From Acidobacteriota bacterium (lineage in GTDB: Bacteria; Acidobacteriota; UBA6911), in contig JAAYAJ010000044.1 of the NCBI GenBank assembly GCA_012719455.1, positions 1 to 36,934 of the forward strand: 36,934 nt of DNA, read 5' to 3'. Below the pieces are notes generated by a model, which was not told where the DNA came from, ran no database searches, and saw nothing but the letters and a program-made list of their open reading frames with translations. Both the position numbers and the translations under genes were made by a program. Shown in pieces: positions 8,341 through 29,349 of the stretch. How positions within the stretch are numbered: the first letter of the stretch is position 1; each line of letters opens with the position of its first letter.

Positions 8341-8417
8341 GGCGACGTAGCTCAGTTGGTTAGAGCGTGGGATTCATAACCCCAAGGTCGGTGGTTCAAT
8401 TCCACCCGTCGCTACCA
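8341..8417 (+). tRNA. tRNA-Met (anticodon CAT), CCA encoded
   Basis: The sequence folds as a full cloverleaf. The acceptor arm GGCGACG (8341-8347) pairs with CGTCGCT (8407-8413), with one G-U at the end. The D arm contains the usual AGCTCAGTTGGT. The anticodon loop is ATTCATAAC with anticodon CAT. The T arm has GGTTCAATTCC. A discriminator A and an encoded CCA follow. The G-U closing pair and the elongator-like loops argue against initiator tRNA. CAT could also be a tRNA-Ile2 modified to lysidine, which sequence alone does not exclude. Confidence 0.93.
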
Positions 8418-12322: not shown

Positions 12323-14677
12323 TCAGATCTTGCCCAGCGCCTTGAGCACCCGGTCCGGGGTGGCCGGCGGGTCCACCCATTTGCCGATCGCGTTGTAGAT
12401 GGCGCAGATGATCAAGTGCGTGTTGGCCATCGAATGGCTGATGCCGTTGGCGCCGTAGGCTCCGTTCCCCGCGCGCGTCTCCAGCAGGCGGGTTTCGAGC
12501 TTCGGCACGTCCAGCATCCCCGGCTTCTTGTACTCGATCATGTTGGTGTTGAGCTTCACGCCGGTGCTCTTGTCGTAATAGTAGTCCTCGAACATCTGGC
12601 ATCCCTGGCTGAAGAACGCCACCTGGTCGAGCTGGCTTTCGAGCGAAATCCGCCGGATGACCTTGCCCGAATCCACCGCGGCCCCGTAGCGCAGGATTTC
12701 CACCTGCCCGGTTTCGGTATCCACCGCCACCTCGCAGTACAGCGTGTTCAACGTGTCATACTTGCTGGGCCAGAGCGGGTCGGGAGGACGCCCGGCGAAG
12801 GTCGCGTAGACGTTGGAGGTGAGACTCTTGAGCGGCACCCCGGCGCCCGGGTCCGACTTGAGCACGATCTTTCCGCCCACGATATCCAGGTCCTCCGGCT
12901 TTTTCCCCTTCAACGGATTGGGCGCCCTCTTGGACGACGGGCCGCCGAATCCGCCGCCGGCCGGCTTTTCCGCTTCCGCGATCGCCGCCTCGAAGATGCG
13001 GCGCCGGAAGATATGGCAGCATTCCTTCATCACCCAGCCGGTGGCCACCAGGCCGTCGGCGCCCCCGCTGATCGACACGAACACCGCGTCGGGATCGTAA
13101 TCGATGTGGATGTCCGTGGCTTCCAGGCCGAGCTCTTCCGCGGCGATCATGGCCACGCCCTCGACCGAAAACACCCCCGCGTGAGGACCCTGGATCGGCA
13201 TGCGCACCACGCCGTTACGCAGCTCGAGCACGGCGTGGAAATCGCTCCCCAACGCATGCCGGGGGCACATCTGGTAGCGGAAACCGGCCCCATGCATCCG
13301 GCCGTCGGGCAGTTTCCTGGCCCCGTTCTTGTGCCACTTCCAGTTCATCATCTCCTTTCCGGCCTCGATGCAGGCGTCGAAGCTGGGAACCGGCCGGTGG
13401 TCGGTCTGGCCGTCGGGCCCGTGCAGGTTGAGCCGGGCGATGTCGATCGGATCCTTGCCGAGTTTCTCGGCGATCATGTGGATGGCCATGGTTACCGAGT
13501 CCCAGTTGAAGGGACAGAACTGCGAACTGAAGGGCATCAGGCCGCGGTTGCTGTCGACCACCTCCATCCGCTGACGGATGTTCAGGCACTTGGTCCCGAT
13601 GTAAGGGCCGTACCCCTGATCGCCGATCGTGCCGAAAAAGGAATTGCCCGTGGTGCCGCCGTCGGTGATGGAGAAATCGTCGAACGCGGTGATCAGGCCG
13701 TCCTTGGTAAAACCGACCTTCATGTGAATGAAACGCTGCTGGATCATGAAGTCGAAGGTGTCGCGGCGGGTATTGGCGCAGCGCACGGGCCTGCCGGTCC
13801 TTTTGGCAAGGAGCGGGGTGATCTGCTGGGACCGGCGAATGGTCCAGTCGCAGTACTTCCCCCCCTGGAACAGCCCCTCCTGCACGGTTTTTTCCGGCGG
13901 CAGCCCATACAATTGCCCGATCGCGTTCTTCCCGCCGCTGGCGTGCCAGACGGCCCCTTCCACGTGGATATTGTCTCTCCCCCGGTAGGGATCGTCGAAC
14001 CACCAGGCCACCGAACCGTGAGGGTTGGGGGAAGCGGAGGCGTAGGCGGGCATATTCAGGTCGTACTCGATGATGTAATCGGCCTCGCTAAAACCCTTTT
14101 CCACGTCGCCCTGGTTCTGGTTCGAATAGGCCACGTTCCCCTGTTTCGGCGGATTGTCGCCGCTCCCCCCTCCGAACGGATTGACGACGCCCGTCCGGTC
14201 CTCGGGACGGATGACAGGGGCGTTGGCCTCCCTTCCCGCCTTGATATCCACGATATGCGGCAGGACTTCCCATTCCACCTCGAGCGCCTCCAGGGCTTCG
14301 TCACAGATGTCCCCGTTTTCCGCGACGACGATGAAACCCACTTCCACATTCTCTTCCTCGGCGACATCGGACAGGAAAGGCTGGGGTGGACCGCCGATAC
14401 CGGCGCGGGCGAGCTTTTTCAGATCCTCGTCCTTCCAGGTGACGATGTCCACGACTCCGGCAACGGCCCGGGCCCTTTCCAGGTTGTACCCCTTGATCCG
14501 CGCATGAGCGTGAGGGCTGCGCAGGAACTTGGCTTCGAGCATATCGGGAACCACATAGTCGATCCCGAACTTGGCGAGGCCCGAGGCGACGGCCCATGAC
14601 AGCTTGCCCTGGAGGTCCGTTTTCCCGACCACCCTGAAATCCTTCCTCTGCCCGTTGATTCCCGTTAAATCCGCCAT
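12323..14677 (-). CDS. Xanthine-oxidase-family molybdopterin-binding subunit, divergent
   Basis: This 784-residue protein is the large, Mo-pterin-binding subunit of the xanthine dehydrogenase/aldehyde oxidoreductase family. It has the N-terminal ald_Xan hammerhead (ARIKGYNLERARAVAGVVDIVTW), a TGRPVR segment, EELGLEATDIHI and a C-terminal NAIGKWVDPPATPDRVLKAL. Two key sites are unusual. The GGGFG-type Mo-cofactor loop reads GLFQGGKYCDW. The C-terminal VGE motif, which supplies the catalytic Glu, reads AGNGAYG. No [2Fe-2S] or FAD subunit gene is adjacent, although the enzymes normally need them. A GAGGAGG ribosome binding site precedes the ATG. The protein may have another reaction or partner subunits elsewhere. 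Confidence 0.87.
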   Translation of the reverse strand: MADLTGINGQRKDFRVVGKTDLQGKLSWAVASGLAKFGIDYVVPDMLEAKFLRSPHAHARIKGYNLERARAVAGVVDIVTWKDEDLKKLARAGIGGPPQPFLSDVAEEENVEVGFIVVAENGDICDEALEALEVEWEVLPHIVDIKAGREANAPVIRPEDRTGVVNPFGGGSGDNPPKQGNVAYSNQNQGDVEKGFSEADYIIEYDLNMPAYASASPNPHGSVAWWFDDPYRGRDNIHVEGAVWHASGGKNAIGQLYGLPPEKTVQEGLFQGGKYCDWTIRRSQQITPLLAKRTGRPVRCANTRRDTFDFMIQQRFIHMKVGFTKDGLITAFDDFSITDGGTTGNSFFGTIGDQGYGPYIGTKCLNIRQRMEVVDSNRGLMPFSSQFCPFNWDSVTMAIHMIAEKLGKDPIDIARLNLHGPDGQTDHRPVPSFDACIEAGKEMMNWKWHKNGARKLPDGRMHGAGFRYQMCPRHALGSDFHAVLELRNGVVRMPIQGPHAGVFSVEGVAMIAAEELGLEATDIHIDYDPDAVFVSISGGADGLVATGWVMKECCHIFRRRIFEAAIAEAEKPAGGGFGGPSSKRAPNPLKGKKPEDLDIVGGKIVLKSDPGAGVPLKSLTSNVYATFAGRPPDPLWPSKYDTLNTLYCEVAVDTETGQVEILRYGAAVDSGKVIRRISLESQLDQVAFFSQGCQMFEDYYYDKSTGVKLNTNMIEYKKPGMLDVPKLETRLLETRAGNGAYGANGISHSMANTHLIICAIYNAIGKWVDPPATPDRVLKALGKI

Positions 14678-16126: not shown

Positions 16127-16657
16127 CTACTGGAGCAGAAAACAGGCGGTGTAGGTGATGGTCCCCTTGCCGTGGTAGTAAGGGATGCCGCTTGCGCGGC
16201 AGGCGTCGGCGACCAGGATCCCGTACGCCTCCATGGGGGGGCTCGCCCCGAACGGGTCGCGGCAGGGGGCGTCGGGGTAGGTGCAACTGTCGCAGCGGGA
16301 GCAGCTCCCGGTCCCCATGGGGAGCATCCTGGGGAACTCCCGCCGCAGTTCGGCGGCCAGGCGGCGGAATGTCCGCGCGTGGCGCTCCGCGGCTTCCATC
16401 ATCCCCTCGCCATCGAACTCGTCCTCCAACTGTCCGACCGTCTGGACTATCAGCCCCTTCGAATAGCCGCGGAGGCGGGCGGCGCACTCCTCGAGCGTGC
16501 CGCACCCGGGGGGGCAGGACCAGCTGGTGCCGTAACGGCGGCAGCTGTTCGTGCTGCAGGCGGCGCGGACTTCAGGCCGCGCGACGAGGTGGGCGCAGTC
16601 GAGTTCAGCCGCCTCGTCGAAACCAGCTTCCAGGGCCTTTCGGATCCATCTTTCCAC
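16127..16657 (-). CDS. DUF2284 predicted metal-binding protein
   Basis: This protein of about 176 residues matches the DUF2284 (COG5423) pattern of Cys-rich predicted metal-binding proteins. The cysteines lie in ACSTNSCRRYGTSWSCPPGCG near the N-terminus and in SCSRCDSCTYPDAPCRDP in the second half, and the end reads YHGKGTITYTACFLLQ. This arrangement suggests an iron-sulphur or zinc site. The reading frame stays open far upstream over the methyltransferase gene. The true start is probably the GTG at 16657, 11 bases after that gene's stop, though no strong ribosome binding site supports it. It probably shares an operon with the URO-D gene at 16669, and members often occur with corrinoid methyltransferases. 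Function is unknown. Confidence 0.8.
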   Translation of the reverse strand: MERWIRKALEAGFDEAAELDCAHLVARPEVRAACSTNSCRRYGTSWSCPPGCGTLEECAARLRGYSKGLIVQTVGQLEDEFDGEGMMEAAERHARTFRRLAAELRREFPRMLPMGTGSCSRCDSCTYPDAPCRDPFGASPPMEAYGILVADACRASGIPYYHGKGTITYTACFLLQ

Positions 16658-16668
16658 GGCGCGTACCG

Positions 16669-17676
16669 CTACGCTCCCGCCGCACCGGACGGGAACATCT
16701 CCGCGGAGGCGTTGTCGATCTCCTCCATGACGGCTTCGTAAACGCCGGGGAAGATGCTGGTGGGGTCGCCCATCGTGGTGCAGGGAATGTAGTATTTCGT
16801 GCCGTATTCCCGGCAGGCCCGGAAAGTTTCCTTTCGGATCAGGTCGCGCGTCCAGTCCTCGCGGTCGACCTTGCCGTTGTCGATGCCTCCCATGATGGTC
16901 AGTTTCCCGCCGTAATCGGCGAGGATCTTCGGGATGTTGTTGGTGGACATCGCTCCCTGCCAGACGTCCATCCCCATCTCGACCATGTAGGGGACAAGGT
17001 TTTCCCCGTAGGAGTCCGAGTGGTGGACGATGCATTCGACGCCCTGGGACTTGTAATACCCGTAGATCTGCTTGTAGCAGGGGAGGAGGAACTCCTCGAA
17101 CATGGCCGGGGAGATGAAGGAGGATGTCTGGCTGCCCCAGTCGTCGTGATGGAACAGGGCGTCCGGCTTGATATGCCTGCAGATGTCCTCGGCGTACCGG
17201 AGCTCGAACTCGGTGATCATGTCGTAGATCTCGTGCAGCTCGTCGGGGTTGGTGTAGAAAGCGGTCAGGCAGTTGGCGATTTCCAGGAGATAGTGGCTCT
17301 GCTCGAAGACCCCGGGAGCGACGAAGGGGGCCACGAAATATTCGTTGCGGTCGATCGCCTCGACCTGACGGATCGTTTCCTCCCAGGCCTCCGCCGGCAT
17401 GACGGGATCGGGAACCGTGACATAGTCGCGCCAGTGTTCGATGTCCTTGATAACGACGTGTTCCGCATCGTGTACCGGAAACGGCCCGGGCGCGTTGTCC
17501 GGAAAGCAGAAGGTCACGCCCCATTTATTCTTCAGGGGAGGGGCGCCTTTGACCGGGCGCATGTTGCTCAAGGCAAATGGCGTCATCACCAGCGCGAGCG
17601 CCTCGTAGCCCTTGACGAAACGGTCAGGACGACCGCCCTTCATGGTCTCCACCATATTTTGTCTTTTCGTGAGCAT
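16669..17676 (-). CDS. URO-D-family corrinoid methyltransferase (paralog 1)
   Basis: This 335-residue protein has the uroporphyrinogen decarboxylase fold used by corrinoid methyltransferases such as MtaA and MtbA. Key segments are MLTKRQNMVETMKGGRPDRF at the N-terminus, HHDDWGSQTS near residue 176, VHHSDSY at 217-223, TIMGGIDNGKVDRED near 260 and YIPCTTMG near 296. His219, Asp221 and Cys299 would occupy the places of the HxC...C zinc ligands of MtaA. It is close to the protein at 26876 along its whole length. The ATG at 17676 has GAGGGGGAG upstream; the open frame extends further but lacks conserved sequence. It probably transfers methyl groups between a substrate and a corrinoid protein. Confidence 0.86.
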   Translation of the reverse strand: MLTKRQNMVETMKGGRPDRFVKGYEALALVMTPFALSNMRPVKGAPPLKNKWGVTFCFPDNAPGPFPVHDAEHVVIKDIEHWRDYVTVPDPVMPAEAWEETIRQVEAIDRNEYFVAPFVAPGVFEQSHYLLEIANCLTAFYTNPDELHEIYDMITEFELRYAEDICRHIKPDALFHHDDWGSQTSSFISPAMFEEFLLPCYKQIYGYYKSQGVECIVHHSDSYGENLVPYMVEMGMDVWQGAMSTNNIPKILADYGGKLTIMGGIDNGKVDREDWTRDLIRKETFRACREYGTKYYIPCTTMGDPTSIFPGVYEAVMEEIDNASAEMFPSGAAGA

Positions 17677-17790
17677 CCGATTCTCCCCCTCGATAAGGTA
17701 CAGTTGATCCCTAAAAGGCCGTCCACAGCGCACCGGAGCCTGTTCCCGTTCCGGTTGCATCACTGTAAGGAAAAACGGCGGAAAAGAATA

Positions 17791-17809
17791 CCTTTTTCTC
17801 GAAAAAAGG
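17791..17809. repeat. Hairpin CCTTTTT...AAAAAGG between divergent genes
   Basis: A 7-base stem with a 5-base loop lies between the divergent genes at 17676 (minus) and 17867 (plus). It could act as a terminator-like or operator element in either direction. The surrounding 190 bases must hold both promoters, but I see no convincing -35/-10 pair. Confidence 0.3.
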
Positions 17810-17866
17810 AAACGCGGTCTCTGGTATGGTGTGAACCGGGGGTTCGGTCCCGCAAGGAGTGTTTGG

Positions 17867-18649
17867 ATGACAAGCGCCGTCTTCGACCTGGAAGCCTATT
17901 TCGAGAGAGTGCAATATCGCGGCGGCACGGACGCCGGAGAGGAAACCCTCCGGGACCTTCACACCGCCCACGCCCTGAACGTGCCCTTCGAAAACCTGGA
18001 CGTGTTCTACGGGAGACCGATCCTGCTGGACGAAGCCTCCCTTTTCAGAAAAATGGTGGGGGAACGGCAGGGGGGGTACTGCTTCGAGATGAACGGCCTC
18101 TTCTCCCTGGTCCTCGGGAAAATGGGATTCAGGGCCAGGAATCTCCTGGCGCGGGTGATCCTCGACAACGACCGTTGTACGACCAAGACCCACCAGGTGA
18201 TCCTGGTGGAAGCGGGAGGCCGGAGGTGGCTGGCCGACGTGGGCTTCGGCAACAATGGTCTCGTCGCCCCGCTGATCCTGGAGGAGGGGATGGAGCAGGA
18301 TCAGTTCTCCCACACCTACCGTATCACCAACCATTCGGCCTTCGGCCACATGCTCCAGAAGAAGGAGGGGGAGCAGTACCTCCCCCTCTACGCCTTCACC
18401 CTCGAGGAGTGCTTCCCGGACGATTTCCTCATGGCGAACCATTTCACCTCCACGTTCCCCGGCTCTTTTTTCCTGACGATGCGCATGTGCACCCGCCCCA
18501 CCCGGGACGGGAGGGTCACCCTCACCGACAATCATTTCAAGGTCGTAAAAAACGGCGAGGTATCAGAGCAACCCCTCGCGGATGAAGAGGAATTCACCTC
18601 CCTGGCCAGAAAGCACTTCGGCCTGGATCCCGACCGGATCCAGCCGTAG
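17867..18649 (+). CDS. nat: Arylamine N-acetyltransferase
   Basis: This enzyme transfers an acyl group, usually acetyl from acetyl-CoA, to aromatic amines or hydrazines. The catalytic triad is clear: Cys72 in RQGGYCFEMNGLF, His109 in KTHQVIL and Asp124 in LADVGFG. The 260-residue length and the N-terminal VPFENLD motif also fit. The ATG at 17867 has AAGGAG eight bases upstream, better than the ATG at 17831. The next gene, a URO-D-like protein, begins 34 bases after the stop, so the two may share a transcript. Its place inside a methyltransferase cluster hints at an aromatic substrate, which is inference. Confidence 0.93.
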   Translation: MTSAVFDLEAYFERVQYRGGTDAGEETLRDLHTAHALNVPFENLDVFYGRPILLDEASLFRKMVGERQGGYCFEMNGLFSLVLGKMGFRARNLLARVILDNDRCTTKTHQVILVEAGGRRWLADVGFGNNGLVAPLILEEGMEQDQFSHTYRITNHSAFGHMLQKKEGEQYLPLYAFTLEECFPDDFLMANHFTSTFPGSFFLTMRMCTRPTRDGRVTLTDNHFKVVKNGEVSEQPLADEEEFTSLARKHFGLDPDRIQP

Positions 18650-18683
18650 CGACGGCGCCCGGCGGAGTTCGGAGGAATCGGCG

Positions 18684-19751
18684 ATGGACTTCGGAAAAAT
18701 CTTGATGGACGCAATCGAGGGCCGGGCCCCGGCCCGCCCCCTGTTCATGCCCGACCTGGGCCTCTGGTTTACCTGGCACAGCCGCCGGGGAACGCTGCCG
18801 CAAGGGTGCGGGGGGTCGCCCGCCGAAATCGCCGCGTCCCTGAACTGCCCGGCGTGGACCGTCCGGACCCCCTGGAAGCTGGAATATGAAGGGGTCGAGG
18901 TGACGCGCGAAAAGTCCGCGACCGGGCGGATCGTCCGGTATCTAACCCGGCGCGGGGTTCTGACCGAAAAGTGGGCGCTGGGCCCCGACGGCGACTGGTG
19001 GCAGCAGGAATATCCCGTCAAGAACGAGGAGGACCTGGACGCCGCGGAGGAGATCGTCAGGGGAATGCGTTACCGCCTGGAACCGTCCGGATCCCCCGCC
19101 GCCGCAAGCCCCGGGGGGATCGAAGCGATCGAGATCCCCAAGGCCCCCTACTCCGACCTGCTCCACACCCTGCTGGGATGGAGCGACGGACTGATGCTGC
19201 TGATGATGGAAGAGGAGCGGTTTGCGGCCATGCTGGAGGTCATGGAGGAAACCAGGAACGGGCTGGTTCGGGACCTGGCAGCCGCCTTCCCCGCCTCCCT
19301 CTTCTGGGCGCCCGACAACCTGGACGGGCAATTCGTCACGCCGGCCGCCTTCGGGAAATACCTCCGGGGCAGCTACCGCACGACGGGTGAACTGCTGCAC
19401 TCGAGCGGCGGCCGACTGTGGGTGCATATCGGGGGGATGTGCCGCCACCTGCTGGCGCCCATGGGGGAGGCCGGCATCAACGGGGTGGCGGGCGTTTCGG
19501 CCCCCCCCCAGAGCGATGCGACCCTCGCCGAGGCGAGGCAGGCAATGGGCCCGACCCCGATGCTGTGGGGGGGCATTCCCCAGGATTACGTCATGCCGAT
19601 GGTGGACCGCGCCCTCCTGAGGAGATCGATCGCCGAAGCCCGGGCCTTCGCGCGGGGGGACGGCCGGACGATCGTGGGGGTGGCGGACCACGTCCCGGTC
19701 GATGCCGAATGGGACCGAATCAGGGAAATCGCCGATGCTCTGAATTCATGA
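18684..19751 (+). CDS. Divergent URO-D-fold protein (paralog 2)
   Basis: This 355-residue protein has the uroporphyrinogen decarboxylase-like fold but is far from the other three in the window. It keeps family landmarks such as an LWVHIGGMCRHLL strand near residue 245 and a MLWGGIPQDYV strand near 293. The ligand region differs: HIGG replaces the HxC/HxD triplet, and the usual C-terminal PC is absent, although Cys253 is near. It may therefore lack the zinc site or carry another. The ATG at 18684 is preceded by GGAGGAAT. The gene follows the N-acetyltransferase closely and meets the RACo gene tail to tail with a 6-base overlap. Confidence 0.75.
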   Translation: MDFGKILMDAIEGRAPARPLFMPDLGLWFTWHSRRGTLPQGCGGSPAEIAASLNCPAWTVRTPWKLEYEGVEVTREKSATGRIVRYLTRRGVLTEKWALGPDGDWWQQEYPVKNEEDLDAAEEIVRGMRYRLEPSGSPAAASPGGIEAIEIPKAPYSDLLHTLLGWSDGLMLLMMEEERFAAMLEVMEETRNGLVRDLAAAFPASLFWAPDNLDGQFVTPAAFGKYLRGSYRTTGELLHSSGGRLWVHIGGMCRHLLAPMGEAGINGVAGVSAPPQSDATLAEARQAMGPTPMLWGGIPQDYVMPMVDRALLRRSIAEARAFARGDGRTIVGVADHVPVDAEWDRIREIADALNS

Positions 19752-21557
19752 AACGCTGGCGCCCATCGGGGTGATGGCGGCGAATTTCTCGTTGAAATCA
19801 GGGATGCGGGCCAGTTCGAGGTACCCATTCAGCTCGGCAATGGCGAGCGCCTCCCGGCGCCTCTCCCTCGAAACCAGCGCCAGGCGCGCCCCGGTCCCCG
19901 CCGCGTTCCCCACCTGGTCGAAACGCCCGAGGGGGAGCGCCGGGAGCATGCCGATGGCGATGGAGCTCTCCACGTCGATATAGGTGCCGAACGCCCCGGC
20001 GATGATCACCCGGTCGATATCCTCGTCCTTGATCCCCGCGTCTTCGACCAGGGCCTGGACACCGAGGCGGATGGCGGTCTTGGCCGCCTGCAGCTCCCGA
20101 ACGTCCTTCTGCGATACAGTGATATCTTCCTGCCCCGGCCGCTCGGCCAGGATGAATTCCTGCACCCCGTCGCGCCGGCGCACTAGCGGGTGGTCCAGCA
20201 TCCTTCCCGTGGCGTCGATCACCCCCTCCTGGAGCATCTGGGCGACGGCGTCGAGCAGGCCCGAGCCGCAGATGCCGACCGGGGCGCCCCCCCCGATCGT
20301 CTGGATTTCGGGCCGCCCCTCACGGAAACGCACGTGCTCGATCGCCCCCACAGCCGCCCGCATGCCGAACCGGATCTGCGCCCCTTCGAATGCCGGCCCG
20401 GAGGCGCAAGAGACGCTCTTCATCCTGCCGCCGCGGTTCAGGCAGATTTCGGTGTTGGTGCCGATATCGATGGCCAGGGTCACGCCCTCCCTCCGACTCA
20501 TCCCGATCGCCAGCAGCATCGCCACGTGATCCGCGCCCACGTATCCCGCGATATTCGGCAGCATGTGCGCCCAGGCTCCCGGCGCCGTCTTCAGGCCGAT
20601 GTCCCGGGCCTTGAAGTCCTCGGCGCCGCCGATGCCCGGCACGTACGGGACCAGGCCCAGCTGCCGCACCGGCAGGCGCAGGAAGAGGTGATGCACGGCG
20701 GTGTTGGCAACGAGCACCGCGTCGACGATGTGCGCGGGCTCGGCGCCGATTTCCGCGCACAGGGCGGAAACGCTGTCGTTCAGGGCATCCACCAGAAGCG
20801 TCTGCATGCGCGCGGCGTTCTCCACGGACTCCCCCGCGTTGTGGATGCGGGCGATGATGTCCTCGCCGTAGGAGATCTGCGGGTTCATCAACCCCGCGGA
20901 GGCGATGATGTCGCCGCTTTTCATGTCCACCAGGTACACCGCGATCTTGGTCGTGCCGATATCCACGGCAAGGCCGATCCAGCGGGTCGCGGGAGCATCG
21001 AGGGCGATGATCTCCCCTTCCCGCACCACGACGCTCGCCTCGAAACGGAGCTCGCGCAGCCTGGAAGCGAGAACCTGCTGCACGGCAAGATCGATGGTTC
21101 CCGGCGCCAGGCCGTGATCGCGCCGGAGGACGTCCCACAGGTTCCGGTCGTCCGGCAGCGGGCGCCCCAGCGAGGGAGCGGTCATCCGCACCTCGAACCC
21201 CCGCACCAGGGGATCCGGGTCGACCCGCACCTCGAGCCCTTCCACCTGGGTGCGCTGGGGGGCCGACAGCGATTCCGGCGGCACGTGCACCCGGATGTCG
21301 CCCTGCGGGACCGTCATGCAGGCGAGACGGCGGCCCTGCCCGATTTCCTCCTCCGAAAAGGCCTCCCGGTCCTCGGCCGTCGGCTCCGAAACTGGCCCCG
21401 CCACCACCTGGACCCGGCAGCGATGGCACACCCCGACGCCGCCGCAAATGCCGACCAGGTCCACGTCGAGGCGCCGCGCACATTCCAAGAGGGTTATCCC
21501 CTCGGGGCAGAGACCTCGCCTTCCCACCGGCATGAATTCGACTTTGTGCACCGACAC
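19746..21557 (-). CDS. RACo-type reductive activator of corrinoid proteins (DUF4445, 2Fe-2S)
   Basis: RACo proteins use ATP and a [2Fe-2S] cluster to reduce inactive cob(II)alamin in corrinoid methyl carriers to cob(I)alamin. The N-terminal plant-type ferredoxin domain has Cys38, Cys44 and Cys47 in GICGGVGVCHRC and Cys80 in RLACMT. After a linker, the ASKHA ATPase domain begins with GLAVDIGTTKIAVYLVD near residue 196 and continues with LAIDIGTNTEICL near 361, a GGGAPVGICGSGLLDA stretch and AGAFGTYID. The GTG at 21557 or the next GTG at 21551 is the likely start; earlier codons read through a terminator hairpin. It is about 603 residues. The intergenic terminator suggests it is not simply co-transcribed with the upstream URO-D gene. 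Confidence 0.92.
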   Translation of the reverse strand: MSVHKVEFMPVGRRGLCPEGITLLECARRLDVDLVGICGGVGVCHRCRVQVVAGPVSEPTAEDREAFSEEEIGQGRRLACMTVPQGDIRVHVPPESLSAPQRTQVEGLEVRVDPDPLVRGFEVRMTAPSLGRPLPDDRNLWDVLRRDHGLAPGTIDLAVQQVLASRLRELRFEASVVVREGEIIALDAPATRWIGLAVDIGTTKIAVYLVDMKSGDIIASAGLMNPQISYGEDIIARIHNAGESVENAARMQTLLVDALNDSVSALCAEIGAEPAHIVDAVLVANTAVHHLFLRLPVRQLGLVPYVPGIGGAEDFKARDIGLKTAPGAWAHMLPNIAGYVGADHVAMLLAIGMSRREGVTLAIDIGTNTEICLNRGGRMKSVSCASGPAFEGAQIRFGMRAAVGAIEHVRFREGRPEIQTIGGGAPVGICGSGLLDAVAQMLQEGVIDATGRMLDHPLVRRRDGVQEFILAERPGQEDITVSQKDVRELQAAKTAIRLGVQALVEDAGIKDEDIDRVIIAGAFGTYIDVESSIAIGMLPALPLGRFDQVGNAAGTGARLALVSRERRREALAIAELNGYLELARIPDFNEKFAAITPMGASVS

Positions 21558-21580
21558 CCGCCTTTCGCTGCAGGATCTGG

Positions 21581-21616
21581 AAAAAAGCCTCCCCGGGACC
21601 ATTGGCCCGGAGAGGC
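21581..21616 (-). terminator. Intrinsic terminator between URO-D gene and RACo gene
   Basis: On the minus strand an 11-base stem (GCCTCTCCGGG with CCCGGGGAGGC, one G-T pair) encloses an 8-base loop and is followed directly by six Ts. It lies just after the stop of the URO-D gene at 21644 and about 24 bases before the RACo start. Confidence 0.85.
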
Positions 21617-21643
21617 CGGGAGTGCAAGAAACCGCTTCGGGGC

Positions 21644-22645
21644 TCAGGCCTGCTGCTTTTTAAGCCATTCCGCGCCGTACCGGTTGCATTCGTCGATCAC
21701 GACCGGTGTCACCCACTCGTTGATACACTCGAGGCTGCCGATACAGGGGAGGAACGCCCCGCCGGGGGCGTAGGTGTCGATGGCCTTGCGGACCTCGCCG
21801 CGGATCACGTCCTCGGTCACATCGGCCCGGTCGATCACGCCCTGATCGATGCCCCCCAGCATGAGCATCTTGCCCTGCGTGTTTTCCCTGATCGCGTGGA
21901 GATCGTTGGATGGCAGGGCTCCCTGCCACATGTCGATCCCCAGATCGAGCATGTCCTTTTCGAGTCCCTGGATATAGCAGTCGGCATGATGCTGGACCAG
22001 CACCCCGCGCTCCTTGAGGTAGCTGTACATGCGCCGGTAATGCGGCTTCAGCAGCTCGCGGAACTTCTGCGGGGAGAAGAAAAGTGAGGTCTTGGAGCCC
22101 CAATCGTCGTGGCTTTGCACGACGTCGGGCTTCAGGTTGTCGATGAGCTGTTCGAAAACCTGGAGCTTCCAGTCGGCGTACGCATCGAAGAACTCGTACA
22201 TCGCCTCGGGCTCCTCGTACAAGTTGACGAGCATTTCCTCGAAGGGCATCAGGCAGTGCGCGCGCTCGAAAAGGCCGCGGAAACTGGGAACCATGATCAG
22301 CGTGGTTTCCCGGTCGATCTCTTCGACCGCCTTCTTGGCGTCACTCCAGTCCAGGTCCGGGATGACGGGGAACTTGACGTAGTCACGCCATTTCGTGATG
22401 TCCTTGATGACCTTGTTCTCGTCGTTGACGATCGGGATCCAGCCGGGGTCGCCGGGCAGGAAGCGCAGCGTCCCGCCCCAGTTGTCGATTGCCGCCTCCC
22501 CCGTGAACTGGAGGATGTCCCATATGGAAATGGGATCCATGACACAGTGGAACTTGACTTTTGGAAAGGCCTCGAACCCGTACCCCATCCATCGGATGGG
22601 TTTTTCATTCCGCAGGGCGGACAGGAACATCTCTTTTAAATTCAT
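21644..22645 (-). CDS. URO-D-family corrinoid methyltransferase (paralog 3)
   Basis: This 333-residue URO-D-fold methyltransferase resembles the proteins at 16669 and 26876 but is clearly more distant. It has an SHDDWGSKTSLFFSP block near residue 178, VQHHADCYIQ near 217, KMLMLGGIDQGVIDRADV near 259 and FLPCIGSLECI near 298. His220, Asp222, Cys223 and Cys301 are candidate metal ligands. The start ATG has AGGAG ten bases upstream. It lies between the hydantoinase-like ASKHA gene and the RACo gene, all on the minus strand, with a strong terminator on its downstream side. The methyl donor is unknown. Confidence 0.86.
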   Translation of the reverse strand: MNLKEMFLSALRNEKPIRWMGYGFEAFPKVKFHCVMDPISIWDILQFTGEAAIDNWGGTLRFLPGDPGWIPIVNDENKVIKDITKWRDYVKFPVIPDLDWSDAKKAVEEIDRETTLIMVPSFRGLFERAHCLMPFEEMLVNLYEEPEAMYEFFDAYADWKLQVFEQLIDNLKPDVVQSHDDWGSKTSLFFSPQKFRELLKPHYRRMYSYLKERGVLVQHHADCYIQGLEKDMLDLGIDMWQGALPSNDLHAIRENTQGKMLMLGGIDQGVIDRADVTEDVIRGEVRKAIDTYAPGGAFLPCIGSLECINEWVTPVVIDECNRYGAEWLKKQQA

Positions 22646-22830
22646 GAGCTAACGTCTCCTGATTGTTTTTGTTGGAATTCTCGAAAAATCATAGCCTGCA
22701 CGAGCCGATGCCATTATGAACCTTGCGCGAACGCTTCCTGTCCATCCGCGCCCCACGAAATCCCGCCGCGCGGGGCCGGACGCTTACCCATTTTATAAGT
22801 GATAGCGCCCGGTTCACAAGCGATAACTTC

Positions 22831-24900
22831 CTACGCCGATTCCCCGGGCCGCGGCAAACGGCCCGCTTTCCCCCCCCCGACGCGATCGGCCCCCGCATCC
22901 GGACGTCCCTCGAGGCTTGCGGATATGGTGCGCTCCAAAAAAACCTCTTCCCCGGTGGCCGCCAGGGGCCGGCTGTCCCGGGTTTCGAAGGTCAGGCTCC
23001 CACCGTCCGTTCCGGCTTCGCCCGCCTTCCGCTGCACGATGGCGGCCAAGGTCCGCCTGACGAACCGATCCGCGTCGTCGATGTTCCTGAAACGGTGAAA
23101 GCCGGAAACGCCTTCCACGATGAAATCGCCGTCGTCGCCGGGAACTATCCGGAGCCCTTTCCGGACATGCACGTGGCTCGTGATCGCGCCGATGGCGTTG
23201 GCGACATCCGCGTGCTCCGGGATGACGGCCCGGGCCTTGAGCGGGACGGCGGCCCGGGGAAGGAAGTAGCGGACCGGGGCGCCGATGCCGATGACGGGGT
23301 GCCTGAGGGTGACCGCCACTTCGTAATCGGGATGCTGCTCTTCCAGGAGATGGCGCACCAGCGTCCTGCAGACGGCGCAATGCTCCATGGCATCGGAATC
23401 GGTGTCGTCGTCCAGACTCCGCTTGAGCAGCTCCAGGGACAGGCGCCGGGTCCCCAGCTCGAGGACGTGGGCCGCCATTTCGTCCACAGACCGGCGGCAC
23501 TGCGAGGCGTAGAAGCCGGCATAGCGCCGGGCGGTTTCCACATCCCATTCCGTGTAGCACCCGTCGATATGAAGCAGGTCCGTAAGGGTCAGCCCGCATC
23601 TCTGGACGACCCCCCTCCCCTCGAGCCTCTGCAGCTGCAGGCTGGCTTCGGTGGCGGCGCCGTTGATATGGAGCATTTCCTCGATCGAGCGGGGCCTTTG
23701 TTCGAGCAGGCGGAGGACCTCTTCCTCCGCCGGGGTGAGGGGCAACGATCCGGCGTCGCCCGTCGCGACCAGGATCGGCATCTTCCCGGTGGAGACTCCG
23801 AACCGCTGGAGCCGGAGGGTCAGGTAGTCGAGGGCGGCTCCGGTGCCGGGCCAATGCCGACCGAGCCAGGAGATGGGGGCGACCCGTCCGGGGCCGATGG
23901 TGAACCGGTTCCGTTCATACAGGACCAGGCTGTCGCCGCCCAGGCCGACGGTGCGGAGATCTAGCGCCTGGACGTGGGTCCTGCGCCCCCCGACGTTGGA
24001 ACCCGCTGCATTGAGCCGGACCCGGCCCGACACCAGGGCGGCCGTATCGGTCGTCGTCCCGCCCATGTCCATCACCAGCGCATCGTCCACGCCGGTCAGA
24101 TGCCGGGCGCCCGCCACGCTGGCGGCAGGCCCCGAAAGGATGGTCTCGACCGGGCGCCGCTTCGCCATTTCCGCGCTCATCAGGGTGCCGTCCCCCTTGA
24201 CCACGAACACGGGCGCGTCGACGCCGTGCCGCCGCAACACTTCTTCGAGATCCAGCAGCAGGCCGGCGATCCTTGGGATGATCTTCGCGTTCAGCACGGC
24301 CGTGACCGCCCGGGTCTGAAAATCGAGCGTGTCCGAAAGTTCATGGCCGCAGGTGACGAAGAGCCCGGTTTCCTCCTCGATACCTCTTTTGACCCGGAGT
24401 TCGTGATCGGGATTGATGGCCCCGGCAAATCCCGACACGGCGAAGGCGGTCACGGCGTGATGCTCGACCATGCGGCGCGCGACGGACCTGATTTCGTCCT
24501 CCTGGACCGGCACGATTTCCCTCCCCGTGATGTCCAGTTGCCCCCGGACCACCGTTTTCGGCCGGTACGGGATGTTGTGATCGATATCCAGCCCGAAGGG
24601 GGGCATGAGGAGGAGACCGACCTTCTGCCCCTCGTTTTCGACGATGGCGTTGGTGGCCAGGGTGGTGGACAGGGAAACCAGTCCCGTGCTCCGCAGCAGT
24701 GTCCGGTCGAGTTGCTCGAGCGCCTTGCCTATGCCCACGGTGAAATCGCGCCGCGTGGTCAGGGATTTGGCCTTGCAGAGGGTGCGGTTCCCCCGGAGGT
24801 CGAACAGGACCGCGTCGGTATAGGTGCCGCCGGCATCCACGCCCAGTCCGATTGTGATGTGGCCGCTGTCGTTCAAGGTCTCCCCGGGGCTCCCGTCCAC
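22831..24900 (-). CDS. Hydantoinase/oxoprolinase A-like ASKHA protein with winged-helix-like insert
   Basis: This 689-residue protein belongs to the HyuA (hydantoinase/oxoprolinase) family of ASKHA-fold ATPases. GLGVDAGGTYTDAVLFD is near residue 18, STTLATNAIVE near 78 and LVMDMGGTTTDTAAL near 275. A region at about 388-433 (LPLTPAEEEVLRLL...LQRLEGRGVV) looks like a winged helix. A CAVC pair lies at 508-511. No HyuB partner is nearby, so a true hydantoinase role is doubtful. Similar proteins are found in corrinoid methyltransferase clusters, and an activating or ATP-coupled role is possible, though this is inference. The GTG at 24900 has AAAGGTG about 11 bases upstream. It diverges from the core methyltransferase operon. 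Confidence 0.83.
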   Translation of the reverse strand: MDGSPGETLNDSGHITIGLGVDAGGTYTDAVLFDLRGNRTLCKAKSLTTRRDFTVGIGKALEQLDRTLLRSTGLVSLSTTLATNAIVENEGQKVGLLLMPPFGLDIDHNIPYRPKTVVRGQLDITGREIVPVQEDEIRSVARRMVEHHAVTAFAVSGFAGAINPDHELRVKRGIEEETGLFVTCGHELSDTLDFQTRAVTAVLNAKIIPRIAGLLLDLEEVLRRHGVDAPVFVVKGDGTLMSAEMAKRRPVETILSGPAASVAGARHLTGVDDALVMDMGGTTTDTAALVSGRVRLNAAGSNVGGRRTHVQALDLRTVGLGGDSLVLYERNRFTIGPGRVAPISWLGRHWPGTGAALDYLTLRLQRFGVSTGKMPILVATGDAGSLPLTPAEEEVLRLLEQRPRSIEEMLHINGAATEASLQLQRLEGRGVVQRCGLTLTDLLHIDGCYTEWDVETARRYAGFYASQCRRSVDEMAAHVLELGTRRLSLELLKRSLDDDTDSDAMEHCAVCRTLVRHLLEEQHPDYEVAVTLRHPVIGIGAPVRYFLPRAAVPLKARAVIPEHADVANAIGAITSHVHVRKGLRIVPGDDGDFIVEGVSGFHRFRNIDDADRFVRRTLAAIVQRKAGEAGTDGGSLTFETRDSRPLAATGEEVFLERTISASLEGRPDAGADRVGGGKAGRLPRPGESA

Positions 24901-24969
24901 TGACTTGTAGCACCTTTCCCCCGCCGCATCAACGCCCCAATGACGCCCCCGAACCGGACGACATTACGG

Positions 24970-24997
24970 TTGACATCCGGCCGGAATGGAATAAAAT
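24970..24997 (+). promoter_or_regulatory. Sigma70-like promoter of the core methyltransferase operon
   Basis: TTGACA (24970-24975) is a perfect -35 and TAAAAT (24992-24997) a near-consensus -10, with 16 bases between. Transcription would begin near 25004, leaving an untranslated leader of about 205 bases before the ATG at 25213. Confidence 0.7.
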
Positions 24998-25096
24998 CAT
25001 AAAGGTCTTATTTCAGAGTACTTAGAGGATCCACGGGTTGGCTTGCATTTGACCCGGCGCCATCCTTTAGGAAACTCAATGTGTAAATAGAGCGGA

Positions 25097-25140
25097 GTCG
25101 GGCCGCACGGGCCCGACGGCGGCCGGGCGGGATCCCCGCC
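25097..25140 (+). promoter_or_regulatory. Structured 5' leader with two GC-rich hairpins
   Basis: Within the predicted leader, GTCGGGCC (25097-25104) pairs with GGCCCGAC (25110-25117). GGCGGG (25126-25131) pairs with CCCGCC (25135-25140). Neither is followed by a T-run, so they are not plain terminators. They could be part of a regulatory RNA, or stabilise the leader. Confidence 0.4.
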
Positions 25141-25212
25141 ACAGGCGCATCCCGCAACGTGTTCGGGTTCGGCAATGAATTCTGAATCATTATGGGAATG
25201 GAGTGATGTACG

Positions 25213-26034
25213 ATGATAATAATTGCTGAAAAAATCAATGGATCTATTCCATCCGTAGCCAAGGCGATTGAAGCGAGGGACGCCGGTTTCATCCAAAACC
25301 TGGCGAAAGTGCAGTCCGAAGCGGGGTCCGATTTTATCGACGTCTGCGCCTCCGTCGAGGTTTCCCGGGAGCTGGAAACCCTGAAATGGATGATCGACCT
25401 CGTCCAGGAGGTCACCGACACCCCTATTGCCGTAGACAGTCCGAGTTCCGAGACCTGCGCCAAGGCGATCGACTTCTGCAAGCGACCCGGGCTCGTCAAC
25501 TCCGTGTCCATGGAGGGGAACAAGGTCGAAGAGGTCTTCCCCAAGATCGCCAAGACCGAGTGGGAGTGTGTCGCGCTCCTGTGCGACGACACGGGGATCC
25601 CGCGCTCAGCCGAAAAGCGCCTCGAGGTGTTCGACGCCCTGATGCAGAAGGCGAAGGAATACAACATCGACCCTTCCAGGCTGCATATCGATCCGCTGGT
25701 GGAAATGCTGGCGACCTCGGACGACGGCATCAACATGATCATCGAGGTCATGAAGGAAATCCGGAGGCGCTACCCCACCATTCACATAACGGGGGCGGCC
25801 AGCAACGTCTCGTTCAACCTTCCGGCGAGAAAGATCGTGAACCAGGCCTTTGTCGTTCTCGCCATGAACGCGGGGCTGGACAGCGTGATCCTCGACCCGT
25901 TGAACAAGGACATGAGGGGCCTGATCTACGCCACGGAAGCGTTGCTGGGCCATGACGAGATGTGCATCGAGTTCATCCAGGCGTTCAGGAAAGGCGTGTT
26001 CGGCACGCCCCCCCAGGCGCCGGCGAAGAAGTAG
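25213..26034 (+). CDS. Pterin-binding (MtrH/AcsE-like) methyltransferase, THF:corrinoid
   Basis: This 273-residue protein has the dihydropteroate-synthase-like TIM barrel that binds tetrahydrofolate and exchanges a methyl with a corrinoid protein. Visible motifs are IIIAEKING at the start, DFIDVCAS near residue 40, PIAVDSPSSE near 71, VNSVSMEG near 95, HIDPLV near 158 and GAASNVSFNLP near 194. Asn198 falls in the position used by AcsE to activate the pterin. Length matches methyltransferase II enzymes of O-demethylase systems. GGAG lies nine bases before the ATG. It is the first gene of the operon with the corrinoid protein and a URO-D methyltransferase, which supports the methyl-transfer role. 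Confidence 0.9.
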   Translation: MIIIAEKINGSIPSVAKAIEARDAGFIQNLAKVQSEAGSDFIDVCASVEVSRELETLKWMIDLVQEVTDTPIAVDSPSSETCAKAIDFCKRPGLVNSVSMEGNKVEEVFPKIAKTEWECVALLCDDTGIPRSAEKRLEVFDALMQKAKEYNIDPSRLHIDPLVEMLATSDDGINMIIEVMKEIRRRYPTIHITGAASNVSFNLPARKIVNQAFVVLAMNAGLDSVILDPLNKDMRGLIYATEALLGHDEMCIEFIQAFRKGVFGTPPQAPAKK

Positions 26035-26215
26035 GGAGCCTGTCCGCCTCCGCCTGCGCGCTTCGGCGGCGGTTTTCCTTAGCTTCTTCGGGGCGGACAT
26101 GCTAGATAATATCTGGCGCAGTTGTTGCAATATAGCCGGTCTCGTGGAAGAGCGGTTATACAGGAATCAACTTCTCCGGCCCACGGCCGGGATATCATGA
26201 AATTCAGGTGAAAAA

Positions 26216-26848
26216 ATGGCCAAAATCGACGAAGTCAAAGAACAGGTTATCATCGGCAAAACTAAAATGGTTCCCGGACTGGTCCAGGCGGCCCTGGACG
26301 AGGGAAGCGCCGCGAAGGACATCCTTCAGGCAATGATCGACGGGATGAAGGTGGTGGGAGACCGGTTTTCCGCCGGCGAAATCTACGTGCCCGAAATGCT
26401 GATCGCGGCTAAAGCGATGGCCAAGGGCGTCGAAGTGCTGAAGCCCTCCCTCAGCGGCGAAGCCTCCACCTCCCTGGGCACCTGCGTCATCGGCACCGTC
26501 GAGGGCGACCTGCACGACATCGGGAAGAATCTCGTCAACATGATGATCGGCAGCGCCGGTTTCGACATGGTGGACATCGGCGTGGACCAGGCTCCCGACA
26601 AATTCATCGAAGCCATCAAGAACAACAAGAACGTGAAACTGGTGGCGTGTTCGGCGCTTCTGACCACCACGCTCCCCGCGCTCAAGAAGACGGTCGACGC
26701 CATCAGGGAGAGCGGACTGCAGGGCTTCAAGATCATCGTCGGCGGGGCGCCTGTGACCGCCCAGTTCGCCGAGGAAATCGGCGCCGACGCCTATGCCCCC
26801 GACGCTGGATCCGCGGCGGAAAAGGCGAAGGAAATCGTCGCGGCCTAA
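26216..26848 (+). CDS. Corrinoid (B12-binding) methyl-carrier protein
   Basis: This 210-residue protein has an N-terminal helical cap domain (residues 1-85, with VVGDRFSAGEIYVPEMLIAA) and a C-terminal Rossmann-like B12-binding domain. The base-off/His-on motif is Asp98-Leu-His100-Asp-Ile-Gly103 in EGDLHDIGKN, where His100 would ligate cobalt. A GGAPVT motif near residue 176 contacts the cobalamin tail. It is of the MtaC/MtbC/MttC type and shuttles the methyl group between a URO-D enzyme and the pterin enzyme. AGGTG lies just before the ATG. A 181-base gap separates it from the upstream gene. Confidence 0.95.
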   Translation: MAKIDEVKEQVIIGKTKMVPGLVQAALDEGSAAKDILQAMIDGMKVVGDRFSAGEIYVPEMLIAAKAMAKGVEVLKPSLSGEASTSLGTCVIGTVEGDLHDIGKNLVNMMIGSAGFDMVDIGVDQAPDKFIEAIKNNKNVKLVACSALLTTTLPALKKTVDAIRESGLQGFKIIVGGAPVTAQFAEEIGADAYAPDAGSAAEKAKEIVAA

Positions 26849-26875
26849 CCCCATCCCGATCAAAGGAAGACGTTC

Positions 26876-27892
26876 ATGCTGACCAAGAGACAGAATCTAC
26901 TGGAAACCATTCGTGGGGGCAAACCGGACCGGTTCGTCAACCAATACGAGGCGTTCGATTGCGATCCGGGTTCCATCTTCGGCATGATCATGGGAGACCC
27001 CATCGCGGCCGCCTCGCCGAGGGTGGGCCGCGGCGAGCCGCCGGTCAAAGACGGCTGGGGGGTCACCCGGGCGTGGCCTCCCAACGTGCCGGGAGCTTTC
27101 CCGGTGCACGACGAGGAACACAAGGTGGTCAAGGACATCACCCAGTGGGAGAAAGTCGTCAAGGCGCCGCGGCTGGACTACCCGCAGTCGGAATGGGACA
27201 AATTCAAGCCCAAGATCGCCGCCGTGGACCGGAACGAAGTGTTCGTCACCATATTCGGAGCTCCCGGAATTTTCGAGCAGCTTCATTACCTGATGGGCAT
27301 GGACGACTGCCTGATCGCTTTTTATGAAGAACCCCAGGCAGTGAAGGACCTCATCCAATACGTGACCGACTGGAAGCTCAGTTACGCCAAGTTGCTGTGC
27401 GACAATTTCGCCCCCGAAGTCATCCTTCAGCACGACGACTGGGGCAGTCACCGGTCATCCTTCCTCTCCCCGGACATGTTCGAGGAATTTTTCCTGGAAC
27501 CCTACAAGAAGTGGTACGGGTACTACAAGGAAAGAGGGGTCCAGCTCATCGTGCATCACAACGACTCCTACAGCGCCAATCTCGTTCCTTTCATGATCGA
27601 GATGAAGGTCGACATCTGGCAGGGGTGCGTCACTACGAACAATGTCTCCGAACTCATCAAGAAGTACGGCGGCAAGATCTCCTTCATGGGGGATATCGAC
27701 AACGGTCTCGTCGACCGCGAAGATTGGACCCAGGAACTGGTCGAGCAGCACGTACGCAGGGCTTGCGAGGAAAACGGCAAGCATTACTTCATTCCCTGCA
27801 TCACCCAGGGGGGCAAGGGCTCCGTCTACGACGGGGTCTACGACGCCATCTCCCGGGCAATCGACAAGATGAGCAAGGAGATGTTCAACTAG
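26876..27892 (+). CDS. URO-D-family corrinoid methyltransferase (paralog 4, core operon)
   Basis: This 338-residue URO-D-fold methyltransferase begins 27 bases after the corrinoid gene and is likely its direct partner. Segments are MLTKRQNLLETIRGGKPDRF at the start, LQHDDWGSHRSSFLSP near residue 184, VHHNDSYSAN near 226, FMGDIDNGLVDRED near 270 and YFIPCITQG near 304. His228, Asp230 and Cys308 replace the HxC...C zinc set of MtaA. It is closely related to the product at 16669 but not identical. AAAGGAAG precedes the ATG. Either a demethylase (methyltransferase I) or a methyltransferase II role is possible; the presence of the pterin enzyme favours methyltransferase I. Confidence 0.9.
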   Translation: MLTKRQNLLETIRGGKPDRFVNQYEAFDCDPGSIFGMIMGDPIAAASPRVGRGEPPVKDGWGVTRAWPPNVPGAFPVHDEEHKVVKDITQWEKVVKAPRLDYPQSEWDKFKPKIAAVDRNEVFVTIFGAPGIFEQLHYLMGMDDCLIAFYEEPQAVKDLIQYVTDWKLSYAKLLCDNFAPEVILQHDDWGSHRSSFLSPDMFEEFFLEPYKKWYGYYKERGVQLIVHHNDSYSANLVPFMIEMKVDIWQGCVTTNNVSELIKKYGGKISFMGDIDNGLVDREDWTQELVEQHVRRACEENGKHYFIPCITQGGKGSVYDGVYDAISRAIDKMSKEMFN

Positions 27893-27918
27893 AACGGGGA
27901 CGACTGTGCCCGAACAGG

Positions 27919-27961
27919 AGCCGGGGGACGCGCCGCATCCAGGTAGCGCCCCCGGCTTTTT
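27919..27961 (+). terminator. Intrinsic terminator of the core methyltransferase operon
   Basis: AGCCGGGGG (27919-27927) pairs with CCCCCGGCT (27949-27957). The stem continues as CGC/GCG after a bulged A. A run of five Ts, beginning with the last stem base, follows. It starts 27 bases after the stop of the URO-D gene. Confidence 0.88.

Positions 27962-28113: not shown

Positions 28114-29349
<1,236 letters not shown>

Follow-up and report, generated by a model that had tools for sequence, protein, structure and literature searches.

Which methyl compounds could be handled by a gene cluster that encodes four proteins of the uroporphyrinogen decarboxylase (URO-D) family together with a corrinoid carrier protein (CP)? 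This question is raised by positions 16127-27892 of the window, by which we mean the whole stretch of 36,934 nucleotides analysed here (contig JAAYAJ010000044.1, assembly GCA_012719455.1, from an Acidobacteriota bacterium of lineage UBA6911); in its metagenome-assembled genome (MAG), of 2.79 Mb and 97% complete, this contig is C17. Ten genes lie in this block, in the order DUF2284, uroA, NAT, uroB, RACo, uroC, HyuA-like, MT2, CP, uroD (Table 1). We think it likely that they form a corrinoid-dependent O-demethylase system, most probably for methoxylated aromatics, activity and substrate both being judged from sequence, and, with similar confidence, that the host is an anaerobic, non-acetogenic Acidobacterium.

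Gene content and conservation of the cluster

What is reported below on gene content, conservation, B12 and folate motifs, metal-site residues and family placement was observed directly. Genes were called from Pfam and NCBIfam matches, and reading frames were fixed using the GC content of third codon positions (GC3), the structure of the open reading frames (ORFs) and orthologues. A first-pass annotation of this DNA had listed four URO-D proteins, a carrier, a pterin-binding enzyme, RACo, a HyuA-like protein, DUF2284 and an arylamine N-acetyltransferase (NAT), and all are recovered by Pfam and NCBIfam or by profile comparison. Its remark that MtaB and MttB are missing agrees with our Pfam and NCBIfam scans, in which none of the window's main ORFs matches either family. 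Its core set of methyltransferase I (MT I), CP, methyltransferase II (MT II) and activator was held to match an O-demethylase scheme, and this is borne out: the nearest solved structures to MT2 are 4o0q, 4o1e and 4o1f. Of its overall interpretation, the scheme and the distinction from HemE hold, the option of N-demethylation loses ground, and the substrate, then left unknown, can be inferred to belong to the methoxylated aromatics, perhaps to those of the ferulate type.

The gene content and most of the order of the block are kept in five genomes of one genus of uncultured Acidobacteria, so that the co-occurrence of these genes is not due to chance. Genome G006 has ten of ten genes in identical order, mirrored; G004 has the ten genes over two contigs, with the break inside HyuA; G001 has eight of them inside one contig of 11.5 kb; and G003 keeps the blocks HyuA-uroC-RACo, NAT-uroB and MT2-CP-uroD together, with uroA-DUF2284 on a separate contig and one additional URO-D gene. 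An incomplete set is found in G005, of the same genus, as two separate pieces, CP-uroD and MT2'-CP'-uroC-DUF2284. In the second piece (L039:6905-10323), the pair that MT2' and CP' resemble, at 74% and 83% identity, is not that of the window but another in the window's genome, at C49. Desulfosporosinus and Acetobacterium paludosum also have MT2-CP-uroD in this order, and genes for MT2, CP and a uroD relative are found together in further Bacillota loci; a plasmid search for the named relatives yields distant matches only and is uninformative.

A strong promoter-like site before MT2 matches at 11 of 12 positions, with 0.3 such sites expected, and similar sequence is kept in two close orthologous regions. 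A cobalamin riboswitch or other RNA family was searched for upstream of MT2, and none was found.

Three URO-D proteins with a non-thiol metal site

In a tree of 61 URO-D-family sequences, built by maximum likelihood, uroA and uroD fall in a single clade of 23 rows (support 100/100), with Blautia proteins and 11 of the 20 URO-D-family matches of Acetobacterium dehalogenans; uroC forms a clade of its own. Relatives of uroD at 53-68% identity occur in Acetobacterium, Desulfosporosinus, Blautia and others. A. dehalogenans is a characterised O-demethylating acetogen, for which 26 methyltransferase systems have been reported, as well as OdmB and VdmB, both O-demethylases (PMC13222342, PMC10418091), and these two are thus expected among its 20 matches. 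In the tree, uroA, uroC and uroD are not HemE, and the genome has a separate HemE that scores 416 bits. Identity with HemE was rejected for uroD, which scores 19 bits against a cut-off of 303, and with which residues and tree also disagree.

The MT I family has invariant H228-x-D230 and H186-D187-D188-W-G motifs, residues 186-190, 227-228 and 230 being the same across 26 relatives. By alignment, H228 and D230 line up with the histidine and the first cysteine of the H-x-C of MtaA, which we take to be metal ligands; uroA, uroC and uroD thus have H-x-D where thiol methyltransferases have H-x-C, and all three carry Cys308. A His-Cys-Cys site marks enzymes of the S/Se type, and a carboxylate in place of a cysteine marks O-type sites (PMC10418091). 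The invariant H-x-D consequently argues for O-demethylation over sulfur or selenium chemistry, and uroA, uroC and uroD are probably MT I O-demethylases with a non-thiol metal site. The greatest variability of the family lies at residues 41-60, which would fit a segment where substrate choice differs.

Searches of PDB sequences with the MT I profile and with the uroB profile gave no useful match, and the fold assignment therefore rests on a predicted model of uroD. This model (pLDDT 94.8) folds as a URO-D barrel and is as near to URO-D (VIA Z 23.8) as to the methylcobamide:coenzyme M methyltransferase of Methanosarcina mazei, 4ay8 (23.5). CdmB and MtoB are not among the structures listed, an absence that carries no weight.

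The fourth paralogue, uroB, is deeply divergent: it has no Pfam or NCBIfam match, and is a relative of the URO-D family by profile comparison only. Its profile aligns with that of uroA, uroC and uroD with an hhalign probability of 96.8% (E 2.6e-10, 146 columns), and matches URO-D methyltransferases of other genomes at up to 48 bits. In the tree it is a long branch outside the others, with unsure placement. A search of 149 relatives gives orthologues above 700 bits in the five cluster-bearing genomes and no others, and distant homologues, at 70-109 bits, in three further genomes of the class. A structure predicted from two sequences reached a pLDDT of 42 and was not used.

Carrier, second methyltransferase and activator

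The carrier has the lower-ligand motif D98-L-H100-D-I-G103 (DxHxxG), and is one of only two PF02607 carriers in the host genome, the other being at C49. MT2 scores 302 bits with the PDB entries 4o0q, 4o1e and 4o1f, versus 122 bits with an AcsE-type enzyme. Its alignment keeps D75, N96, D160 and N198 at positions which we take to form the folate site; 4o0q and 4o1e derive from the O-demethylase of Desulfitobacterium hafniense. Entries 4O1E and 4O1F serve as templates for folate-bound MT II (PMC13222342). The protein is 74% identical to an MT2 of Desulfosporosinus and 65% to one of A. dehalogenans, both encoded beside uroD relatives.

The activator RACo has three RACo domains and a [2Fe-2S] domain in Pfam. 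Because it is 63% identical to the second RACo of the host genome (L272:690-2483), which lies directly behind trpB and trpA, the RACo of the locus probably originated as a duplicate of a general reactivator that the locus recruited.

Accessory proteins

The DUF2284 protein contains 12 cysteines. Of 80 related loci, 15 have a gene of this family, among them all 12 that have a RACo within reach, which suggests help in activation: DUF2284 probably assists RACo.

The HyuA-like protein has no HyuB partner in the window. Its relatives at 63% and 59% belong to Zodletone Spirochaete and Deltaproteobacterium MAGs that hold uroD relatives elsewhere; another relative, in G001, adjoins RACo and a DUF1638 gene. 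The role that fits best is that of a corrinoid-linked, ATP-dependent accessory, which the protein probably is, though some relatives (L042, L210, L211) stand without a methyltransferase nearby.

The NAT protein scores up to 160 bits with NATs of the PDB, carries the catalytic cysteine motif QGGYCFE, and may acetylate an aromatic product. NAT genes lie near URO-D genes at two loci of Blautia parvula (L240:5225-8335 and L241:4149-8672) and in an uncultured Clostridia MAG (L128:2263-4010), instances too few to weigh.

Substrate and fate of the methyl group

Next to uroD, beyond the range 16127-27961 of the first-pass annotation, lies a gene whose product aligns over 356 residues with PDB 6rzo, 'Ferulic acid esterase' (509 bits, E 8e-152), and has the nucleophile elbow GLSMG. 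Its orthologues (88%) adjoin uroD in both of the closest orthologous regions, in G006 and G004 (L033, L036). Since ferulate has an aromatic methoxy group, a substrate of the ferulate type is the simplest reading; that ferulate itself is the substrate is a tentative conjecture, on circumstantial grounds, to which we give somewhat less than even weight.

As to the fate of the methyl group, the CdhC/AcsB family (acetyl-CoA synthase) is found in none of the five cluster carriers, and is present in two other genomes of the genus, G005 and G007; gaps in MAGs could conceal it, but hardly in five out of five. FTHFS and several proteins of the MTHFR family are present. It is thus natural to conjecture that the methyl group is not made into acetate, and is probably oxidised to formate or taken into biosynthesis.

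A gene for a molybdenum subunit of the xanthine dehydrogenase family lies at 12323-14677 of the window. In a Deltaproteobacteria MAG, a 59% relative (L059:9247-11622) lies immediately next to a uroD relative, and the gene is possibly another link to aromatics.

Proposed mechanism

From these observations we infer the following reactions, substrate, sharing of one carrier and roles of the accessory proteins. RACo, with ATP, would reduce the cobalt of CP to Co(I). The proteins uroA, uroC and uroD would be alternative MT I enzymes, each accepting a different methoxylated aromatic in its URO-D barrel, and would transfer the methyl group from the methoxyaromatic to the Co(I) of the single carrier, releasing a phenol. 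MT2 would then pass the methyl group from CP to tetrahydrofolate (H4folate), and methyl-folate would go to oxidation through MTHFR and FTHFS, or to biosynthesis. The adjacent secreted ferulic acid esterase probably supplies substrates of the ferulate type from plant polymer. DUF2284 would aid RACo, the HyuA-like protein is probably an additional ATP-dependent accessory of the carrier, and NAT may acetylate an aromatic product of the pathway.

Weighing the explanations

Several observations weigh against this scheme. No row of the tree is identifiable as a characterised MT I (OdmB, VdmB, MtvB or MtoB), which leaves an indirect connection to any O-demethylase of proven function. C308, expected as the third metal ligand, is not family-wide, being N, G or S in several members of A. 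dehalogenans, and uroB matches no known active site: it has VHIGG, without H-x-D and without H-x-C. The esterase is not beside uroD in G003, and the contig of G001 stops there; the gene is convergent with uroD, not co-transcribed with it, and could lie next to it by chance. A transporter for aromatic acids was not found in the block. Finally, the HyuA-like relatives of Desulfosporosinus occupy quaternary-amine or betaine contexts.

This last point leads to another possibility, in which the HyuA-like protein would be the sign of a betaine-type pathway and the URO-D proteins would demethylate N-methyl or quaternary-amine compounds. A full-length relative (35%) belongs to a cluster CP-MttB-CP-MttB-HyuA-MT2 with a BCCT transporter, in a Desulfosporosinus MAG (L213:3271-14577); another relative is, as read by eye, beside a BCCT-like gene (L212); and the best NCBIfam subfamily scores of CP are for MtgC and MtbC, though far below cut-off. 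Glycine betaine clusters, in which a hydantoinase is also labelled, do share with the window a HyuA-like ASKHA protein adjoining CP and MT2 (L213; PMC9768040), but their MT I is of the MttB type and comes with a BCCT transporter, whereas the MT I of the window is of the URO-D type. No MttB protein is among the window proteins scanned, a betaine transporter was not found, MT2 is 39% identical to the MT2 of the MttB cluster versus 65-74% for those beside uroD relatives, and the three HyuA relatives mentioned above have no methyltransferase nearby. The N-demethylase option of the first annotation is weakened by the lack of a MttB protein and by the H-x-D metal site, and we hold it to be improbable.

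Two further readings come from clusters of similar composition. Type 1 mlp gene clusters (MGCs) also combine several URO-D paralogues, three Mlps per cluster, with one corrinoid protein and RACo, in a similar general make-up (PMC10418091), which would imply chemistry of the S/Se type. However, their His-Cys-Cys sites are almost invariable and they have no H4folate methyltransferase (PMC10418091), whereas the window has H-x-D in uroA, uroC and uroD, VHIGG in uroB, and MT2 within the cluster; NCBIfam scores for MtaA and CmuA are also very low, at 18-38 bits. This reading was rejected on residues and tree, and we give it very little credence. Dehalogenation of chloromethane or dichloromethane, by a Cdm system or a mec cassette, is suggested by the fact that CdmB and the Mec proteins belong to the URO-D family, and that the mec cassette likewise has three URO-D genes with CP, MTII and reactivation genes (PMC9768040, PMC13222342); its accessory genes are reported to differ, the comparison being by description only. 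A putative CdmB of A. dehalogenans (C8, so called by its gene order B-C-A) has H-x-C-G, shows about 25% identity over a part of the length and falls outside the other methyltransferases in the tree, and the putative CdmA is 49% identical to MT2, versus 65-74% for the MT2s beside uroD relatives. The Cdm reading was rejected on the site residues and on the position of this putative CdmB outside uroA, uroC and uroD in the tree, and dehalogenation is highly unlikely.

The two remaining readings concern the extra paralogues. The first annotation had taken them as a sign that several substrates feed one carrier. Several URO-D paralogues per carrier have a precedent in the operons of A. dehalogenans, where two or three URO-D genes lie beside one corrinoid protein (L228:7560-12919, L231:8279-11948), and in the mec cassette (PMC9768040); on the other side, the uroC orthologue of G005, with DUF2284, follows a different, housekeeping-like MT2/CP pair. 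It could thus be that MT2, CP and uroD, with RACo, are alone the working O-demethylase, and that uroA, uroB and uroC are partners of other carriers, regulators or scaffolds. The lack of conserved site residues in uroB favours this, but the genome has just the two PF02607 carriers, and the URO-D genes remain clustered with CP in five species. We consider it unlikely, though not negligible; it is a sub-variant of the O-demethylase system proposed above, with which its weight overlaps. Somewhat less likely still is a composite system, in which uroB would be a corrinoid methyltransferase of a new class with an undescribed metal site, the HyuA-like protein would be a second ATP-dependent activator with RACo and DUF2284, and the substrate class would lie beyond those of known O-demethylases.

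Comparison with known systems

The four-component O-demethylases known as Odm, Vdm and MtvABC, from acetogens and Desulfitobacterium, share with the locus a URO-D MT I, a monomeric corrinoid protein, a folate MT II and a RACo-type activator, and the loci of Desulfosporosinus and Acetobacterium share its MT2-CP-MT I order. The locus differs from the former by its four URO-D genes, including the divergent uroB, by its HyuA-like, DUF2284 and NAT genes, and by a host without acetyl-CoA synthase. In MtoABCD of Methermicoccus, two MT I genes likewise share one carrier, with activator and MT2 in the operon, but, by description, MtoB is a protein of 47-48 kDa (PMC8630106), versus 338 residues here, and the MT2 is MtrH-like and uses tetrahydromethanopterin. 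Operons with several URO-D genes are already known, in A. dehalogenans, in mlp clusters and in the mec cassette. The chemistry is thus known from acetogens, and four demethylase-like proteins with added helpers round one carrier are an unusual version of it.

If correct, the O-demethylase assignment extends the demethylation machinery of acetogens to a genus of Acidobacteria whose cluster carriers lack acetyl-CoA synthase, and offers a plausible route from the ferulate of plant cell walls to folate one-carbon metabolism. Expression of methoxy-demethylation genes by Acidobacteriota has been reported from peat (PMC10805028), and the locus provides specific enzymes with which this can be examined. 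Two unassigned types of protein, uroB and the HyuA-like ASKHA protein, are also singled out by the cluster, in a context that allows their roles to be assayed.

Features of the window

Table 1. Coordinates, in window positions, of the genes of the cluster, the promoter-like site and the adjacent esterase gene
Feature	Position	Strand	Basis and remarks
DUF2284, Cys-rich predicted metal-binding protein	16127..16660	-	Pfam PF10050, 160 bits; start uncertain, about 16660-16675
uroA, URO-D-family protein, probable corrinoid methyltransferase (MT I)	16669..17676	-	Pfam URO-D, 54.7 bits; HDDWG, HHxD and PC residues
NAT, arylamine N-acetyltransferase	17831..18649	+	Pfam NAT, 227 bits; alternative start 17867
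uroB, divergent URO-D-family protein	18684..19751	+	hhalign to uroA/C/D; VHIGG, without HxD/HxC
RACo, corrinoid-protein reductive activator (ATP-dependent)	19746..21602	-	RACo_C_ter 262, Raco_middle 172, Fer2 33 bits
uroC, URO-D-family protein, probable corrinoid methyltransferase (MT I)	21644..22645	-	Pfam URO-D, 42 bits; own clade
HyuA-like ASKHA protein, C-terminal half unassigned	22831..24900	-	Pfam Hydantoinase_A 117, Hydant_A_N 106 bits
Sigma-70-type promoter-like site TTGACA-16-TAAAAT	24970..24997	+	Upstream of MT2-CP-uroD; 11/12 match
MT2, predicted methylcorrinoid:tetrahydrofolate methyltransferase	25213..26034	+	NCBIfam PRK07535 (pterin-binding), 339 bits; PDB 302 bits
CP, corrinoid carrier	26216..26848	+	B12-binding PF02310 and B12-binding_2 PF02607 (80 and 60 bits)
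uroD, URO-D-family protein, probable corrinoid methyltransferase (MT I)	26876..27892	+	Pfam URO-D, 56 bits; third gene of MT2-CP-uroD
Ferulic acid esterase	28114..29328	-	Convergent to uroD; apparent signal peptide; likely start 29274; PDB 6rzo match

Elsewhere in the window, a tRNA gene is found at 8341-8414 (Rfam RF00005, 70 bits).

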